The notes under the pieces: generated by a model | What the model was told of the DNA's origin: nothing | Database searches by the model: none | Seen by the model: the letters and a program-made list of their open reading frames with translations, nothing else | Shown here: piece by piece, positions 57,949-64,000 of the stretch | Position numbering within the stretch: position 1 is the first letter of the stretch | How the letters are laid out: every line of letters begins with the position of its first letter | Translations under genes and position numbers: made by a program | Assembly: GCF_036924525.1 (NCBI RefSeq) | Contig: NZ_JAZHRU010000001.1 | Location: forward strand, 3,997,001 to 4,061,000 | Length of the DNA: 64,000 nt | Direction: 5' to 3' | From: Bradyrhizobium sp. AZCC 1719 | GTDB taxonomy: Bacteria > Pseudomonadota > Alphaproteobacteria > Rhizobiales > Xanthobacteraceae

Positions 57949-58362
57949 ATGCGCATCTACGGACCGAACGGCACCACGCTTGGATCGCCCGCAAGTCATA
58001 CGCGGCGAACCAGTTCGACCGGCTTCTCGCTGCCGGAGACGCCGACCACGCCCGAGGAGCCGCGCGCGGCTGTGGCGCCCAAAGCCGCCGGCAACATCGA
58101 CGCGCTGCTCGCCCTGCAAGGTGTCGAGGATCCGACGGAGCGCCGCAAGCGTTCGGTAGCACGGGGCAGGGGCGCGCTCGACGTGCTCGACGAGCTCAAG
58201 ATCGGCTTGCTCTCCGGCAATCTCGATGCTTCTACGGTGAACCGGCTGCGCGATGCCGCTGCCAATCTGAAGTCGTCCTCCGGCGATCCCGGCCTCGATG
58301 CGGTGCTGGCCGAGATCGAGCTGCGCGTTGAAGTCGAACTGGCGAAGGCCGGGCGGTTCTAG
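57949..58362 (+). CDS. fliX: Flagellar assembly regulator FliX
   Basis: The 137-residue protein matches FliX, which in Caulobacter links early flagellar assembly to the sigma-54 activator FlbD. The N terminus MRIYGPNGTTLGSPASHTRR and the C-terminal helix pattern LDVLDELKIGLLSGNLDASTVNRL and LDAVLAEIELRVEVELAK are characteristic. The start at 57949 is the first good ATG; an open frame goes back to 57793 but overlaps the CtrA motif. The sigma-54 promoters at flgE and flgI agree with the role of FliX. Confidence 0.9.
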   Translation: MRIYGPNGTTLGSPASHTRRTSSTGFSLPETPTTPEEPRAAVAPKAAGNIDALLALQGVEDPTERRKRSVARGRGALDVLDELKIGLLSGNLDASTVNRLRDAAANLKSSSGDPGLDAVLAEIELRVEVELAKAGRF

Positions 58363-58365
58363 CTC

Positions 58366-58482
58366 CTGATGTCATTTCCGGGCTGGCCGGGCAACCCATT
58401 ATTCCAGAGACGTTCGTGCTCGACCGAAAGGCCGCGACGTATTGGATGCCCCGCTTGAAGCGAGGCATGACGGCGGTGGATT
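58366..58482. repeat. Degenerate interspersed repeat after fliX
   Basis: The sequence contains GTCATTTCCGGGCT near the left end, and near the right end GGATGCCCCGCTTGAAGCG followed by AGGCATGACGG, the arms of a common palindrome in Bradyrhizobium gaps. The copy is poor, and the hairpin not well formed. Confidence 0.35.
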
Positions 58483-58485
58483 GAT

Positions 58486-58872
58486 TCACGCCGCCATATC
58501 CTTGCGCGCCGCGTCGTAACGGCGCTGCGCGTTCAGCACCTCCTTCAGGTTCTTCTCCGCCCAGTCCCGCAACGGATCGACCGCGTCGGCGAGCGTCGCG
58601 CCGAGCGGTGTGATCGAATACTCCACCGTGACCGGCACGGTCGCGATCGCGCGGCGTTTGATTAATCCGTCGCGTTCGAGCGATTTGAGAACCTGGCTCA
58701 GCATCTTCTGCGAGATGCCTTCAATGGTGCGGCGTAACGCATTGAAACGCATCGGCTCGTGCCTGATGAGAAGCAGGATGAGTACGGCCCATTTGTCACC
58801 GACGCGATCGAGAATCTGCCGCGTCGGGCATTGAGCCGAATAGGCGTTCGGGGTTTTGGCGCTGGCTTTCAC
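58486..58872 (-). CDS. HxlR-type transcriptional regulator
   Basis: The 128-residue winged-helix protein matches HxlR. The N-terminal Cys in QCPTRQILDRVGDKWAVLILLLI (Cys at residue 15, typical of redox or aldehyde-sensing members), the middle RFNALRRTIEGISQKMLSQVLKSLERDGLI and VEYSITPLGATLADAV are present. HxlR-type proteins bind as dimers, often to a palindromic site next to their own gene. It is divergent from an NAD(P)-binding oxidoreductase gene, so that gene is the expected target. The first ATG at 58872 is used. Confidence 0.9.
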   Translation of the reverse strand: MKASAKTPNAYSAQCPTRQILDRVGDKWAVLILLLIRHEPMRFNALRRTIEGISQKMLSQVLKSLERDGLIKRRAIATVPVTVEYSITPLGATLADAVDPLRDWAEKNLKEVLNAQRRYDAARKDMAA

Positions 58873-58893
58873 GGCGGTTACTCCGGCGTAATC

Positions 58894-58948
58894 AGGTGAC
58901 CCAAAAGTGCTCTCTTAACACTTACATTCATTTCGCTATCTAGTCACC
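58894..58948. promoter_or_regulatory. Candidate HxlR operator (nested inverted repeats)
   Basis: In the divergent gap, GGTGAC (about 58895-58900) and GTCACC (58943-58948) form an outer inverted pair, and AAGTG (58905-58909) with CACTT (58919-58923) an inner pair. The two pairs are not concentric. HxlR family regulators commonly act from such dyads between divergent genes. Confidence 0.35.
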
Positions 58949-58986
58949 ATTGGATACCATATCCATCAACTCGCAGGGAGACCTCC

Positions 58987-59598
58987 ATGAAAATCGCCGT
59001 CATCGGGGCGTCCGGCAATGCCGGTTCGCGCATCACAGCCGAACTCGCCCGCCGCGGCCACACTGTGACCGCCATCGCTCGCCATCCCGAAAAGATCGCC
59101 GCCCAGGCCAACGTGACGCCCACCGCGGGCGATGCCATGGACCAAGCGGAACTGGCCCGGCTGCTCGCCGGTCATGATGCCGCGATCAGCTCGATCCACT
59201 TTCTCGCCAGCGACCCGGCCAAGCTGATCGGCGCTGCCAAGGATTCGAAGGTCGGCCGTTACCTCGTGGTCGGGGGCGCCGGCAGTCTTGAAGTGGCCCC
59301 GGGCGTTCGGCTGGTCACCACCCCGGGTTTTCCCGTGGCATACAAGGCGGAAGCCGAGAAGGGCGCCGCCTTCCTCGATCTGCTCCGAGCCGAGAAGGAA
59401 CTCAACTGGACCTTCCTGTCGCCCTCCGCCCTATTCACCGCCGGCGAGCGAACTGGCAAGTTCCGTCTCGGGACCGACCAGCTTTTGACCGCTGCCGACG
59501 GCAAAAGTTCGATTTCCTTCGAGGATTTCGCAGTTGCACTCGCCGACGAGATCGAGCGTCCCGCCCATATCCGCCAGCGCTTCACGGTCGGCTACTAG
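58987..59598 (+). CDS. NAD(P)-binding oxidoreductase (YwnB/atypical SDR-like)
   Basis: The 203-residue protein has the Rossmann motif MKIAVIGASGNAGSRITAELARRG and the segment LVVGGAGSLEVAPGVRLV, typical of the NAD(P)H-binding SDR-atypical family that includes YwnB and NmrA-like proteins. The C-terminal half with ISFEDFAVALADEIERPAHIRQRFTVGY is the usual end. The enzyme is likely a small reductase of unknown substrate, often controlled by an HxlR regulator as here. The ATG at 58987 follows GGGAGA. Confidence 0.85.
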   Translation: MKIAVIGASGNAGSRITAELARRGHTVTAIARHPEKIAAQANVTPTAGDAMDQAELARLLAGHDAAISSIHFLASDPAKLIGAAKDSKVGRYLVVGGAGSLEVAPGVRLVTTPGFPVAYKAEAEKGAAFLDLLRAEKELNWTFLSPSALFTAGERTGKFRLGTDQLLTAADGKSSISFEDFAVALADEIERPAHIRQRFTVGY

Positions 59599-59634
59599 GC
59601 GCTAGGTGGTCCCGATAACTTTGCCTGTGCAAGG

Positions 59635-59657
59635 CCTTGGGGGAGGTACCCCCAAGG
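59635..59657 (+). promoter_or_regulatory. Hairpin upstream of dksA
   Basis: CCTTGGGGG (59635-59643) and CCCCCAAGG (59649-59657) form a perfect 9-bp stem with an AGGTA loop, 37 bases after the reductase stop codon. It has no T run, so it may be a partial terminator or a regulatory stem. Confidence 0.4.
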
Positions 59658-59669
59658 AGACGGCCTATA

Positions 59670-59698
59670 TTGTCTGTCACAACCCGCCGCTATATAAG
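59670..59698 (+). promoter_or_regulatory. Candidate sigma-70 promoter of dksA
   Basis: TTGTCT at 59670-59675 and TATAAG at 59693-59698 with a 17-base spacer would place a start site near 59705, about 50 bases upstream of the dksA start codon. The region is AT-richer than the surroundings. Confidence 0.35.
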
Positions 59699-59753
59699 GC
59701 CCGCGCGGACGGACAATTTTCCGCCCCGCCTTGCACGTGAAGATGGGCTGGCC

Positions 59754-60164
59754 TTGGAAAAGTTGAAGAATTATCGACCCTCCGAAAAAGAGCCTTTCAT
59801 GAACGACCGCCAGCGCGAGTATTTTCGCGCCAAGCTGCTGGCGTGGAAGGACGAGATCCTGAGGGAATCGAAGATCACTCTGCAGACCCTTCAGGAAGAG
59901 AACGTCAATCATCCGGATCTCGCTGATCGCGCCTCTTCCGAAACCGATCGCGCCATCGAACTGCGCGCCCGCGACCGCCAGCGCAAATTGATCTCCAAGA
60001 TCGACGCGGCGCTGCAACGCATCGAGGACAACACCTACGGCTATTGCGAGGAGACCGGTGAACCGATCTCGCTCAAGCGGCTGGAGGCTCGCCCCATTGC
60101 AACGCTGTCGGTGGAAGCGCAGGAACGTCACGAGAAGCGCGAGAAGGTTTATCGGGACGAGTAG
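59754..60164 (+). CDS. dksA: RNA polymerase-binding protein DksA (low-cysteine type)
   Basis: The product matches alphaproteobacterial DksA, which binds the RNA polymerase secondary channel and acts with ppGpp. The coiled-coil tip region HPDLADRASSETDRAIELRARDRQRKLISKID contains the acidic tip pattern, and the C-terminal part has DNTYGYCEETGEPISLKRLEARPIATLSVEAQERHEKRE. Only one Cys of the canonical four remains, so a classic zinc finger cannot form. The TTG at 59754 (136 residues) is preferred because KNYRPSEKEPFMNDRQREYF matches conserved upstream sequence in DksA; the ATG at 59799 (121 residues) is the alternative. The following gene is a hydratase after 69 bases. Confidence 0.85.
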   Translation: MEKLKNYRPSEKEPFMNDRQREYFRAKLLAWKDEILRESKITLQTLQEENVNHPDLADRASSETDRAIELRARDRQRKLISKIDAALQRIEDNTYGYCEETGEPISLKRLEARPIATLSVEAQERHEKREKVYRDE

Positions 60165-60178
60165 GACAGGGCCTGGCG

Positions 60179-60201
60179 GCTGACCGCGACGGGCGGTCAG
60201 C
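60179..60201 (+). terminator. Weak hairpin after dksA
   Basis: A 9-bp stem, GCTGACCGC (60179-60187) with GCGGTCAGC (60193-60201), follows the dksA stop by 14 bases. There is no T run, so if it ends transcription it does so poorly. Confidence 0.35.
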
Positions 60202-60233
60202 GCTGCAGGCTGCAACCATGAAAGCCGCCGCTG

Positions 60234-61019
60234 ATGGACAAGATTCTCGCGGCCGCACAGAACATCGCTACCGCCCGCCGCAATCGCGCGCCGCTGGCCG
60301 CGCTGCCGCCTGAGCTAGCGCCTGCCGATGAAGCCGAAGGCTATCAGATCCAACGCGCCGTCCACGATCTGCTGCTGCCGCAGACCGGCGCGCTGGTCGG
60401 CTACAAGATCGGCTGCACCAGTCCGGTGATGCAGGAATATCTCGACATTCCCCATCCTTGCGGCGGTGGCGTGTTCGCCAAGGGCGTGCATGACTCCGGC
60501 GCCAAGCTGCGCTTCGGCGATTACGTCCGCGTCGGCGTCGAATGCGAGATCGCGGTGCGGCTGGCACGTAGCCTCGCGCCGTCAGAAGCCCCGTTCACCG
60601 CGGAGTGGGTGATGGAGGCAATCGAGGCGTATCACCCAGCAATCGAGATCGTCGACGACCGGTACGTCAAATGGGAGACGATGGGCGCGCCGACGCTGGT
60701 CGCGGACGATTTCTTCGCCGCCGGCTGCGTGCTCGGCAAAGCGGTGGCGCGCACCAAGGCGCCGGACCTGCTCAAGGCCAAGGGCCGTGCCGTTGTCAAC
60801 GGCAAGGAGGCCGGCCGCGGCACCGGCGCCGACGTGCTCGGCGACCCCCACAACGCGCTGGCCTGGCTTGCCAACCATCTCGCCGAAGAGGGCGTGGGGC
60901 TGCATGCCGGGCAGATCGTTCTCACCGGCAGCCTCGTGAAAACCGTGTGGCTCGACCAGGGCGACGCCGTCAAAATGGAGCTCGACGGTTTGGGCATAGC
61001 GGAAGCCAAATTCACATGA
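60234..61019 (+). CDS. 2-keto-4-pentenoate hydratase-like protein (MhpD/FAH family)
   Basis: The 261-residue enzyme belongs to the fumarylacetoacetate hydrolase superfamily, hydratase branch (MhpD, HpcG). The motif GYKIGCTSPVMQEYLDI is near residues 56-72, the metal-binding stretch VECEIAVRLARSL near 103, and IEAYHPAIEIVDDRY near 128. Hydratases add water to 2-hydroxypenta-2,4-dienoate in aromatic ring degradation. No ring-cleavage genes are nearby, so the substrate is open. The next gene starts one base after the stop region (TGA at 61017-61019, ATG at 61021), so the two are probably cotranslated. Confidence 0.85.
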   Translation: MDKILAAAQNIATARRNRAPLAALPPELAPADEAEGYQIQRAVHDLLLPQTGALVGYKIGCTSPVMQEYLDIPHPCGGGVFAKGVHDSGAKLRFGDYVRVGVECEIAVRLARSLAPSEAPFTAEWVMEAIEAYHPAIEIVDDRYVKWETMGAPTLVADDFFAAGCVLGKAVARTKAPDLLKAKGRAVVNGKEAGRGTGADVLGDPHNALAWLANHLAEEGVGLHAGQIVLTGSLVKTVWLDQGDAVKMELDGLGIAEAKFT

Positions 61020-61020
61020 A

Positions 61021-61842
61021 ATGACAGCAATGGCTGAGAGCGTTCCGTCGGTTCTCGAATCCGAAGCGAGAGGCGAAATCGCAGACATCTATGCCGACAT
61101 CCGCAAGGTGCTCGGCACCAGCGTGGTCAACCTGATCTGGCGCAACCTCGCGACCATGCCGGGTGCGCTGGAATGGACGTGGGCGACCGTGCGACCGCTC
61201 TATCTCGGTGACGCGCCATTGCACGCCGAAGCCGTCAGGCGAACGATCGCGCTGCCGGATTGGCCTGGCTTCTCCATCGACACCTTGCTTGCCGCCGGTG
61301 TGGACGAGGCCGAACGCGCACTGATTCGTGACGTGCTCGACAGCTATCAATATACCAATGCGCTCGCGCTCGTCGTGCTCTCGGCGTTGCTGGCGCATTA
61401 CGAGCCGCCCCCGGCCGATGCTGTGACGGCCGTCGATATGGCGCCAACGGCGCCCGGCACAAAAATTCCGGAGCTGCCGCCGATGGAGGCGCTGGACCCC
61501 GAGGTGGCGGCGCTGGTCGCCGAATTGAATTCCTTTGGAGAGGACACCGAACCGCAACTGATTGCGAGTATGTACCGGCACCTGGCGTACTGGCCGTCCT
61601 ATCTGGCGCTGGTGCGAACAATGCTGGCGCCACTGCAGTGGGAAGGGCGGCTGAACGCGCTGACGCTTTCGACTCGCGCGCTCGGGCGCGCGCATGGTGC
61701 GACTCTCGCAAAGCAACTGAAGCCGGCGCCGCCGCCGGATACGCTCAAACCCGCACTCGTCTCCTGCCGCCTGTTCGTCGAACATCCGATCGCGCGGATG
61801 ACAGGGCTCTGCGCCCTGATCCGGCGCGCGACGCCGGAGTGA
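61021..61842 (+). CDS. DehI-like (haloacid dehalogenase type I) family protein
   Basis: The 273-residue protein consists of two similar halves. In the first half VVNLIWRNLATMPGALEWTWATVRPLY and in the second LIASMYRHLAYWPSYLALVRTMLAPL share the pattern YRHLAxxPxxLxxxxxxxxPL. This pseudo-dimer arrangement is that of group I 2-haloacid dehalogenases (DehI). Many relatives without known dehalogenase activity occur in Bradyrhizobium. The active-site Asp of DehI cannot be identified with certainty here. It starts one base after the hydratase stop, so it probably acts with that enzyme. An alternative ATG exists at 61030. Confidence 0.6.
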   Translation: MTAMAESVPSVLESEARGEIADIYADIRKVLGTSVVNLIWRNLATMPGALEWTWATVRPLYLGDAPLHAEAVRRTIALPDWPGFSIDTLLAAGVDEAERALIRDVLDSYQYTNALALVVLSALLAHYEPPPADAVTAVDMAPTAPGTKIPELPPMEALDPEVAALVAELNSFGEDTEPQLIASMYRHLAYWPSYLALVRTMLAPLQWEGRLNALTLSTRALGRAHGATLAKQLKPAPPPDTLKPALVSCRLFVEHPIARMTGLCALIRRATPE

Positions 61843-61846
61843 GGCA

Positions 61847-62275
61847 TCAGCCGTCGGAGCACTTCAACTCGGACTTATCCCAGAATGATTTGATTGCATT
61901 GAAGGGGACGGTGACCCGTTCCCGAGCCCCCCGCAATCGCAGCAGGACATCGAAGCGGTCATCCTTTACGTTCAACTGCTCGAAGTCACTCTGCAGGATG
62001 ATGGTCATATCGTCGGGATATTTCGTCTTGAGGCCGATCGATAGTTTCACGCCGTCGGCGCCAGTGCGAAACGTGAGATTGACAGGCCGCTGCTCCGAGG
62101 CGAGGCGGAGCGTCTCGGCAATCTTGGAGCGCGCCGTCGGCTTGCTGCACGGCTCGGCGAATGCAGGCGAGGCCGGAATCAGGATCACGAGGAAGAGAAG
62201 CAGCATGGCCCCACAAGAAATGGTCACACCCCGCACTTGCGGGGTAGCCACTACGCCGCGACCTGTCGTTTCCAT
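61847..62275 (-). CDS. Exported SspB-fold protein
   Basis: The 142-residue protein has a signal peptide: basic and polar residues 1-24, then LLLFLVILIPASPAFA, with cleavage expected before EPC. The mature part follows the pattern of the ClpXP adaptor SspB: VNLTFRTGADGVKLSIGLKTKYPDDMTI and the block RFDVLLRLRGARERVTVPFNAIKSFWD, which match the SspB substrate-binding fold. The ClpX-tethering tail of SspB is missing, replaced by a short end LKCSDG. Two Cys (one right after the signal, one near the C terminus) could form a disulfide, as expected in the periplasm. The ATG at 62275 is chosen because the shorter start at 62206 would lack positive charges. It is convergent with the DehI-like gene (four-base gap). 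Confidence 0.6.
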   Translation of the reverse strand: METTGRGVVATPQVRGVTISCGAMLLLFLVILIPASPAFAEPCSKPTARSKIAETLRLASEQRPVNLTFRTGADGVKLSIGLKTKYPDDMTIILQSDFEQLNVKDDRFDVLLRLRGARERVTVPFNAIKSFWDKSELKCSDG

Positions 62276-63033
62276 CACTGCGGTCTCTGGAATACTCGAG
62301 CGCCTGCTTCTCGGGCGAATGACAAATGGGTGTATGCTCGCGTCCCCGCGGCTTGCCGGGTCATGCTAACGGGTTCCCTCAAAAAAGAAAGAGGGCGCGG
62401 GAGCGCCAGATGCCCGCAGCACCCGCCGTCCGTGTGTATTGGTAGTAAGGATACGGTAATCATCGCAGTTGTGCCTATCACCGGCGGTGCGCTGCGCAAT
62501 GAGCCTAACGGCTTATATCGGGTTTTCCTCGGCCGTCTCCCCGGCCATGAATCCATCTTGCCATCGTCGTCGGCGAATTAATGGTTAATTGAAAACCTTG
62601 CCGGGCTCGAAGAACCGTCACCGCTCGTCCGCGCGGTTGCTCGCTCAGTTGATGCCGCCCTGCGACAAACTTGCGCACCCGAGGTGCCGCTACCGGCGGA
62701 GTCGCCATGAAGAACGGCGCAACGGGCAACACGACCAGCAATTCCAGGTCTTCATCCAGGACGCCAGCACGCAGGGCGCGGGGACTGCAGGCGCCGTGGA
62801 CAAGAAGGGCGATGCTACTTTCTCCCGCAGGAACCATGAAGAAGTAACGTTCGGGCGGGGAACGATTCTTGGTCGGGAAAATTATGCAATCGTGTTTTTG
62901 AACACGCGGCTACCCTTCAGGCTCTGGCGCGATCTTGCCCCCGAGAGGCGCCGGGGCCTGCTTTTTGGCTGACCAGTGGCCGATTCCACGCCGGGCGCTG
63001 TTTGATCGAACTGTTTGGCAAGCCGTATCGCTG
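62276..63033. other. 758-base region without a supported gene
   Basis: Overlapping open frames occur here on both strands (62237-62581 plus, 62505-62837 minus, 62589-62972 plus), but none has a good start site, sensible composition or recognisable family. A TTAACCAT sequence on the minus strand near 62577-62584 resembles the CtrA 8-mer but no gene is well placed for it. GC content is lower around 62440-62600. It may be old, decayed DNA. Confidence 0.4.
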
Positions 63034-63114
63034 TCACAGGCTGATGACGTATGCACTCATCGCCAGCAAAACGGCGACGCTGACAGCGATAATGATCAAG
63101 AAGAATTTTCCCAT
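63034..63114 (-). CDS. 26-residue single-helix membrane peptide
   Basis: The minus strand encodes a short peptide starting MGKFFLIIIAVSVAVLL and ending YVISL: a Lys near the N terminus followed by one continuous hydrophobic helix, typical of small inner-membrane proteins. GGCGGAGC lies just upstream of the ATG, and an EcfG-like promoter (63137-63161) is well placed. It is too short for standard gene finding. The function is not known; small membrane peptides of this sort often attach to larger membrane proteins during stress. Confidence 0.55.
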   Translation of the reverse strand: MGKFFLIIIAVSVAVLLAMSAYVISL

Positions 63115-63136
63115 TGCTCCGCCTTTCGCAGATCAC

Positions 63137-63161
63137 AACGCAAGGCAGCAGGAATAGTTCT
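63137..63161 (-). promoter_or_regulatory. EcfG-type promoter of the 26-residue peptide
   Basis: On the minus strand AGAAC, a 16-base spacer and CGTT match GGAAC-N16-CGTT except for the first base. The start site would be near 63130, leaving a leader of about 16 bases to the start codon with the ribosome binding site inside. Confidence 0.45.
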
Positions 63162-63250
63162 CTGCTGACAGGCGAACGCAGGCCCTGCGTTCGCGCCTGC
63201 CAGGCAAAGAAAAGCCCGCCACTGCGGCGGACCCCAAGGAGCTACCACGA

Positions 63251-63610
63251 TCAGATCGCGATGCCGTAGTAGTCGTTGATGGCGCGGGTCCGGGTCGGAT
63301 CGCTCCAGTTCCAGGCGTTGTCGTTGCCGTAATGCGGTGCGCTCTTGAGCTGCGCTTCCGTCACGCCGGTGACGTAGCCACCGAGCGAGGTATCGTATTT
63401 CAGCGATTGCCAGGGTAGCGGATAGTGGTCGTCGCCGATGCCGAGAAAGCCGCCGAAGGAGAGCACGGCGTAGGACACCCTACCGCTCTTCTTGTCGATC
63501 ATGACGCGCTCAATCGAGCCGATCTTGTTGCGATCGGCGCCATAGACGGCAGTTCCCTCAACCTTGTCGCTGCCGATCAGGTTGCCGGTTTCGTTTGCGT
63601 CTAGTGCCAT
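63251..63610 (-). CDS. PRC-barrel domain protein
   Basis: The 119-residue cytoplasmic protein is a single PRC-barrel: GSDKVEGTAVYGADRNKIGSIERVMIDKKSGRVSYAVLSFGGFLGIGDDHYPLPWQSL is the conserved core, as in photosynthetic reaction centre H subunits and RimM. Stand-alone PRC-barrel proteins in rhizobia are often induced by general stress. The C-terminal part ends PTRTRAINDYYGIAI. The ATG at 63610 follows AGGAGGAGAAT. An EcfG-type promoter lies upstream. It faces the same direction as the small membrane peptide gene downstream, with its own promoter between. Confidence 0.88.
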   Translation of the reverse strand: MALDANETGNLIGSDKVEGTAVYGADRNKIGSIERVMIDKKSGRVSYAVLSFGGFLGIGDDHYPLPWQSLKYDTSLGGYVTGVTEAQLKSAPHYGNDNAWNWSDPTRTRAINDYYGIAI

Positions 63611-64000
63611 GGGATTCTCCTCCTGCTAGATGGATGAACGAAAACAAGGGGCGGGGGGAGACGTTCCGGAGTGTGGCAGCTACCCATCGACGCATCGATG
63701 TGGATGTGGCGCGTCCAGCCGCATGTCGGTTTGCCCACGATACCGACAACAGTTGGTCTGGTAGACATGTCCGCTAAAAGCCACTGACATCCGAGGCTTG
63801 GCCGGCACACCAGCGGAGGGCCGTTCCTAAAGCCGATGCTAAGCCTCGATGAGCCCTCCGCCTGGTTGTTCCCGGGAATGCAACATGCGGGCTTGATGGC
63901 TCTCGGACGGGCGCAGCAACATTCGCCGAGGCCAGCGCTGCGCTTGTGCGGGTGGCGAAAAACCTGAATAATTTCTGTCGCTCCGACGCACGGATCGGAG
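63611..64000. other. Right-end region upstream of PRC-barrel gene
   Basis: The 390 bases to the window end contain the PRC-barrel leader and the promoter candidate at 63643-63667. Beyond about 63700 I see no supported gene on either strand; short open frames here are unlikely to be real. Confidence 0.35.
63643..63667 (-). promoter_or_regulatory. EcfG-type promoter of the PRC-barrel gene
   Basis: On the minus strand GGAAC, a 16-base spacer and TGTT match GGAAC-N16-CGTT with one difference in the -10. The start site would be near 63636, leaving about 25 bases of leader before the ATG. Confidence 0.45.

Follow-up and report, generated by a model that had tools for sequence, protein, structure and literature searches.

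SspB is familiar from textbooks as an adaptor by which tagged proteins are tethered to ClpX. The window analysed here, the whole stretch of 64,000 nucleotides from Bradyrhizobium sp. AZCC 1719, raises the question of what such a domain might do behind an apparent signal peptide. The gene concerned has the following features ("exported form" denotes below the predicted exported protein and the members of its group, "canonical" the ordinary SspB):

61847..62278, minus strand: gene of the putatively exported SspB-like protein, an open reading frame of 143 codons with its stop codon at 61847-61849
62156..62275, minus strand: predicted signal peptide, residues 1-40 from the ATG at 62275, with cleavage after ASPAFA
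61850..62155, minus strand: predicted mature protein of 102 residues with the SspB fold, beginning EPC
61871..62080, minus strand: segment matched by Pfam SspB (PF04386) in a profile search
62147..62149, minus strand: codon of Cys43, residue 3 of the predicted mature protein (Cys in 77/77 exported forms; 97% of the 86 canonical SspBs have Leu there)
61859..61861, minus strand: codon of Cys139, just past the last predicted strand (Cys in 77/77 exported forms)

Family, copies and descent

The earlier note, made from the letters of the window, had placed the mature part in the SspB substrate-binding domain, and profile and structure agree with it. PF04386 matches with an E value of 3.9e-19 and 69.6 bits (cut-off 27), aligning residues 67-136 of the ORF with positions 30-99 of the 156-position profile, and the eight further exported members scanned all exceed the same cut-off (64.2 to 103.5 bits); a scan of the exported protein against NCBIfam returns no family. 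The nearest solved relatives by sequence are an Agrobacterium protein (2nys_A, E 4.7e-13) and Caulobacter SspB (2qaz_A, 4.8e-10; 2qas_A, 8.1e-10). The predicted structure has a TM-score of 0.80 to alphaproteobacterial SspB at 33% identity over 96 columns, with both protein ends below a pLDDT of 50; its first helix falls at residues 9-17 of the mature part, where several residues fixed in canonical proteins differ. A first protein search gives 404 relatives (the best 120 listed, 25 fetched), and chance resemblance is ruled out by profile, fold and these relatives. That the window protein is an SspB paralogue with the SspB fold is practically certain.

The comparison with the genome's own cytoplasmic SspB, which the earlier note had proposed, can indeed be made. 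A canonical sspB is present (167.7 bits, C1:130560-131015), the window gene being a second copy that is 44% identical to it over the domain. The canonical gene is preceded at a short distance by a tmRNA gene (G000 C1:130025-130382; loci L182, L001), whose tag according to ARAGORN is ANDNYAPVAQAA.

A profile built from 18 exported proteins matches 261 of 265 Bradyrhizobium genomes and gives no match in 4. The exported copy occurs in at least 59 of them, 30 being close to the window's, at 238 bits or above, and 29 diverged, at 95-169 bits, and all of these loci were read; the next rows score 86.6 bits or less. The canonical copy also matches in 57 of the 59, while in two incomplete assemblies (G290, G291) the exported copy alone does. 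In 200 of the 265 genomes there is one match alone, regarded as the canonical gene from its score and span and read in part of the cases; this indicates that the exported gene is dispensable. Partial matches stand at contig ends in G001 and G117, and an additional SspB-like match in G213 and G318 (Bradyrhizobium) and in G565 (order search) belongs to the matches counted but not listed.

In Tardiphaga, 4 of 18 genomes have an exported copy, one with an internal stop, and a fifth holds an apparently truncated remnant. The damaged copies are those at L048 (G088) and L180 (G423), one with an internal TAA and the other apparently truncated; some lines may therefore be losing the gene. A search with the Tardiphaga copy returns 38 matches, including a third exported group, P0130-P0133. 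Outside Bradyrhizobium and Tardiphaga, no exported copy appears among the rows for 246 family, 297 order and 289 class genomes, in searches whose profile favours the known clade and could miss an independent export elsewhere. A wider spread beyond the two genera was accordingly dropped, the order and class rows holding no further exported form.

The exported forms share one origin. In a tree of 127 columns their 33 rows form one clade (support 99/95), and in a tree from the 112 columns between the cysteines, with signal and cysteine columns left out, 32 rows again do so (94/92, unstarred); both trees rest on few columns. E_L096 and E_L108 have long branches in both, E_L122 in the 127-column tree. 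Independent exports in several lines were considered and set aside, as the trees, few as their columns are, give a single clade.

Start codon, predicted export signal and genomic setting

The ATG at 62275, from which the earlier note had read the protein, is a valid start codon but not the sole candidate, as a GTG at 62278 directly adjoins it. Comparison of close copies finds a clear coding signature only from about residue 25 and little of it in residues 1-16, and the 30 bases preceding the ATG (window 62276-62305) are conserved as DNA at every position in 26 copies. Taken together, the weak signature of residues 1-16 and the conserved DNA before the ATG suggest that translation may begin further downstream in some members. 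The GTG of the VTIS codon is a possible later start; the VTIS/MTIS place is without a start codon in 7 of 30 close copies. The early coding part also holds, by eye, a perfect short inverted repeat on the minus strand (CCCCGC-AAGT-GCGGGG, window 62229-62244), and this repeat and the conserved bases before the ATG possibly form a leader element.

Some 116 bases upstream of the gene, a terminator-like hairpin with a T-rich tail stands on the minus strand (window 62394-62407), where it would terminate an unannotated upstream transcript. The stretch that follows it, at about -120 to -106, is strongly conserved as DNA in 26 close loci. Searches found no sigma-70-like promoter in 61800-63300, no Rfam match at gathering score in 58000-64000 and no tRNA gene in the window.

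The signal peptide claimed in the earlier note can be read directly from the protein, as a hydrophobic core followed by ASPAFA/EPC, and a rule-based control agrees. The home-made rule, a hydrophobic 11-mer followed by small residues at -3 and -1, picks out 76 of 77 exported forms, all but P0109, whose annotated start is extended. It picks out 0 of 86 canonical SspBs, and the 23 that it accepts among the 185 window ORFs may include genuine exported or membrane proteins. Median dN/dS is 0.60, 0.63 and 0.49 before the cleavage site and 0.20, 0.11 and 0.21 in the mature part (groups of 30, 5 and 15 sequences), as expected for a cleaved signal and a constrained domain. Canonical SspB is cytoplasmic; the window protein is predicted to be elsewhere. 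On the evidence of its sequence it is very probably exported, and there is good reason to expect that it is cleaved and soluble. A lipoprotein is ruled out for the window copy, its cysteine lying at +3 (AFA/EPC) and not at the lipobox +1; among the 77 exported forms, lipobox-like letters occur in P0130-P0133 only.

In Bradyrhizobium the exported gene is convergent, directly or with genes between, to a FAA-hydrolase-domain gene (window 60234-61019, PF01557), which we take to be a 2-keto-4-pentenoate hydratase. The intervening gene in the window (61021-61842) matches no Pfam family and is presumably DehI-like. The pairing with the hydratase-type gene is found in 13/13 close and 27/29 diverged loci, the exceptions being L083, with the DehI-like gene only, and L101, with neither; one ancestral locus therefore explains nearly all of them. 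The exported gene diverges faster than this neighbour, as its identity to the window copy in the diverged loci is 38-62%, against 76-86% for the hydratase-type gene. In 15 chosen single-match genomes, the 1.5 kb flanking the hydratase-type gene on each side contain no remnant of the exported gene, and 11 of these genomes have flgH about 150-370 bases from the hydratase-type gene. At two loci (L109, L110), flgH is followed on the same strand by the exported gene, about 185 bases away.

A beta-carbonic anhydrase gene (Pro_CA) lies upstream on the same strand, ending within 80 bases, in 17 of 29 diverged loci (L089, L091-L095, L097-L107), and downstream in 1 of 29 diverged and 3 of 30 close loci (L053, L054, L058 and L083). 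The product at L102 scores 132.7 bits with Pro_CA and has, by eye, a Tat-like N-terminus. As a fixed operon partner the enzyme is not upheld, being near (within 1.5 kb) only 3 of the 30 close copies and occurring without the exported gene elsewhere (G138, L194). None of the neighbours looked for adjoins the exported gene in every locus, and none of the Bradyrhizobium neighbours appears in the Tardiphaga stretches searched.

Cysteines, lost tail and possible function

The residues kept and lost were compared between 77 non-redundant exported and 86 canonical proteins, a sample counted as sequences and not as genomes. What the earlier note had called a possible Cys pair is fixed: both positions are Cys in all exported forms, each of which has exactly two cysteines in its mature part, even among members with as little as 32% pairwise identity. 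Of the 86 canonical proteins, 84 are without Cys in this stretch and the other two contain one each. From this pattern, Cys43 and Cys139 probably form a disulfide; the model says nothing on it, because confidence is low at the model ends. The picture of an SspB paralogue that is exported and probably carries a disulfide has good support.

The loss of the ClpX-binding (XB) tail, likewise suggested before, holds in 77/77 exported forms. The tail pattern is present in 74 of 86 canonical SspBs, and the remaining 12 likewise end in FRKK. Other residues fixed in canonical proteins are lost as well: the GLPGEHH loop (its GLPG deleted in 86% of exported forms), W72-D73 of QFWDL, S86, P91 and P107 (numbering of the own canonical copy), together with the VQFGLQF stretch and several first-helix positions. 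Around Cys139, both the VQFGLQF stretch and the tail are missing. The contacts of groove and dimer may be gone with these residues, whose loss argues that ssrA binding is not kept in its usual form. Beyond the Cys pair, the comparison brings out no conserved polar residue that is new with respect to canonical SspB, as would suit a binder more than an enzyme. More of the canonical loop and end is retained in the Tardiphaga and P0130-P0133 groups (e.g., GLRGKHHFSITF; DPSVN) than in Bradyrhizobium, in what looks like a graded departure from SspB.

The explanation that we prefer would begin with a duplication of sspB in the Bradyrhizobium/Tardiphaga line. One copy would have acquired a Sec-type signal peptide and a cysteine near each domain end and lost its C-terminal ClpX-docking tail. 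Its product would be exported, cleaved after AFA and folded as an SspB barrel in the periplasm, where the Cys43-Cys139 disulfide would close the barrel. There it may serve as a binding module of changed specificity that holds an exposed peptide or a partner protein within or close to the former tag groove and passes nothing on to ClpXP. The fold and the descent are established computationally; the export, the disulfide and the binding are inferences. We give this whole chain an even chance, and its activity as binding of peptides or tails a little less than that. Among putative ligands, a periplasmic peptide or tail ranks as most likely and a folded partner next, a role as a true degron adaptor being possible.

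The folded partner comes to the fore if the domain binds no peptide and is instead a small disulfide-closed scaffold on one envelope protein, for example that of a neighbouring gene (the carbonic anhydrase, a component of the flagellar ring). The lost loop and other canonical-fixed residues suit such a scaffold, as do the anhydrase with a Tat-like N-terminus upstream in more than half of the diverged loci and the two loci where the gene follows flgH. However, the anhydrase is scarce beside close copies and is found alone in G138, its only relatives in the genome of the window are at 38% and 30%, located elsewhere, and the flgH adjacency may be plain synteny; we consider the scaffold unlikely, although it ranks next after the preferred reading. 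An adaptor for degrons in the periplasm would bind C-terminal tails, perhaps of ssrA-tagged exported proteins, and deliver them to a periplasmic protease, for instance Prc/Tsp or one of the Deg family. Tag binding is the known activity of the family (PMC8138137). The genome has tmRNA and its tag, and the Tardiphaga and P0130-P0133 groups retain more of the canonical loop and end. In E. coli, periplasmic proteins bearing the ssrA tag are degraded by Tsp. The Bradyrhizobium branch has nevertheless lost the same features; binding is putative, and such delivery appears improbable.

The remaining alternatives concern location. The hydrophobic start might be an uncleaved anchor that tethers the SspB domain to the inner membrane on its periplasmic side, and the n-region from the ATG at 62275 is indeed long (about 22 residues) and conserved in 18 close relatives; yet diverged members whose n-regions are short again show small residues at -3 and -1 ahead of the mature start, and we hold an anchor to be very improbable. 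Marginally less credible still is a protein that is not exported at all, either cytoplasmic with a misassigned start or the product of a decaying duplicate. The weak coding signature of residues 1-16 and the damaged Tardiphaga copies would suit it, but the hydrophobic core lies largely inside the clearly coding part, the mature dN/dS is about 0.2 and the Cys pair is fixed throughout; such a pair would be unusual in the cytoplasm.

Comparison with known SspB systems

A literature search, mostly at the level of titles and abstracts, found no prior report of an exported SspB. An exported branch of single origin with a fixed Cys pair and no tether would show that the recognition domain can be of use where no AAA+ machine is involved. 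Such a branch further suggests that the name 'ClpXP protease specificity-enhancing factor SspB' is wrong for several Bradyrhizobium/Tardiphaga entries. Were the protein the first known periplasmic degron adaptor, its disulfide-locked SspB domain would work apart from the ATP-driven Clp system, binding tags or tails and marking exported proteins that have certain C-termini for a periplasmic protease that needs no ATP; this is a long shot.

The gammaproteobacterial SspBs 1OU8, 1OX9 and 8ET3, tag-binding proteins by their entry titles and from E. coli and Haemophilus, are only 13-15% identical to the exported form in the aligned part. SspB of this class is dimeric and carries a ClpX-docking tail (PMC8138137). 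In Legionella, SspB is a co-immunoprecipitation partner of Mip (PMC10017501); that protein is taken as canonical and not as evidence for the exported one. Closest are the alphaproteobacterial SspBs (2QAS, 2QAZ, 2NYS), which share the PF04386 domain and the fold, and core positions of the own canonical copy are kept in the exported form (F42, G48-V49, Y59-P60, L67-Q68, F71, V83, P97-F98, A100 and D106). In contrast to them, the exported form has a predicted signal peptide and two fixed cysteines and lacks the ClpX-binding tail, the VQFGLQF stretch and the W and D of QFWDL.
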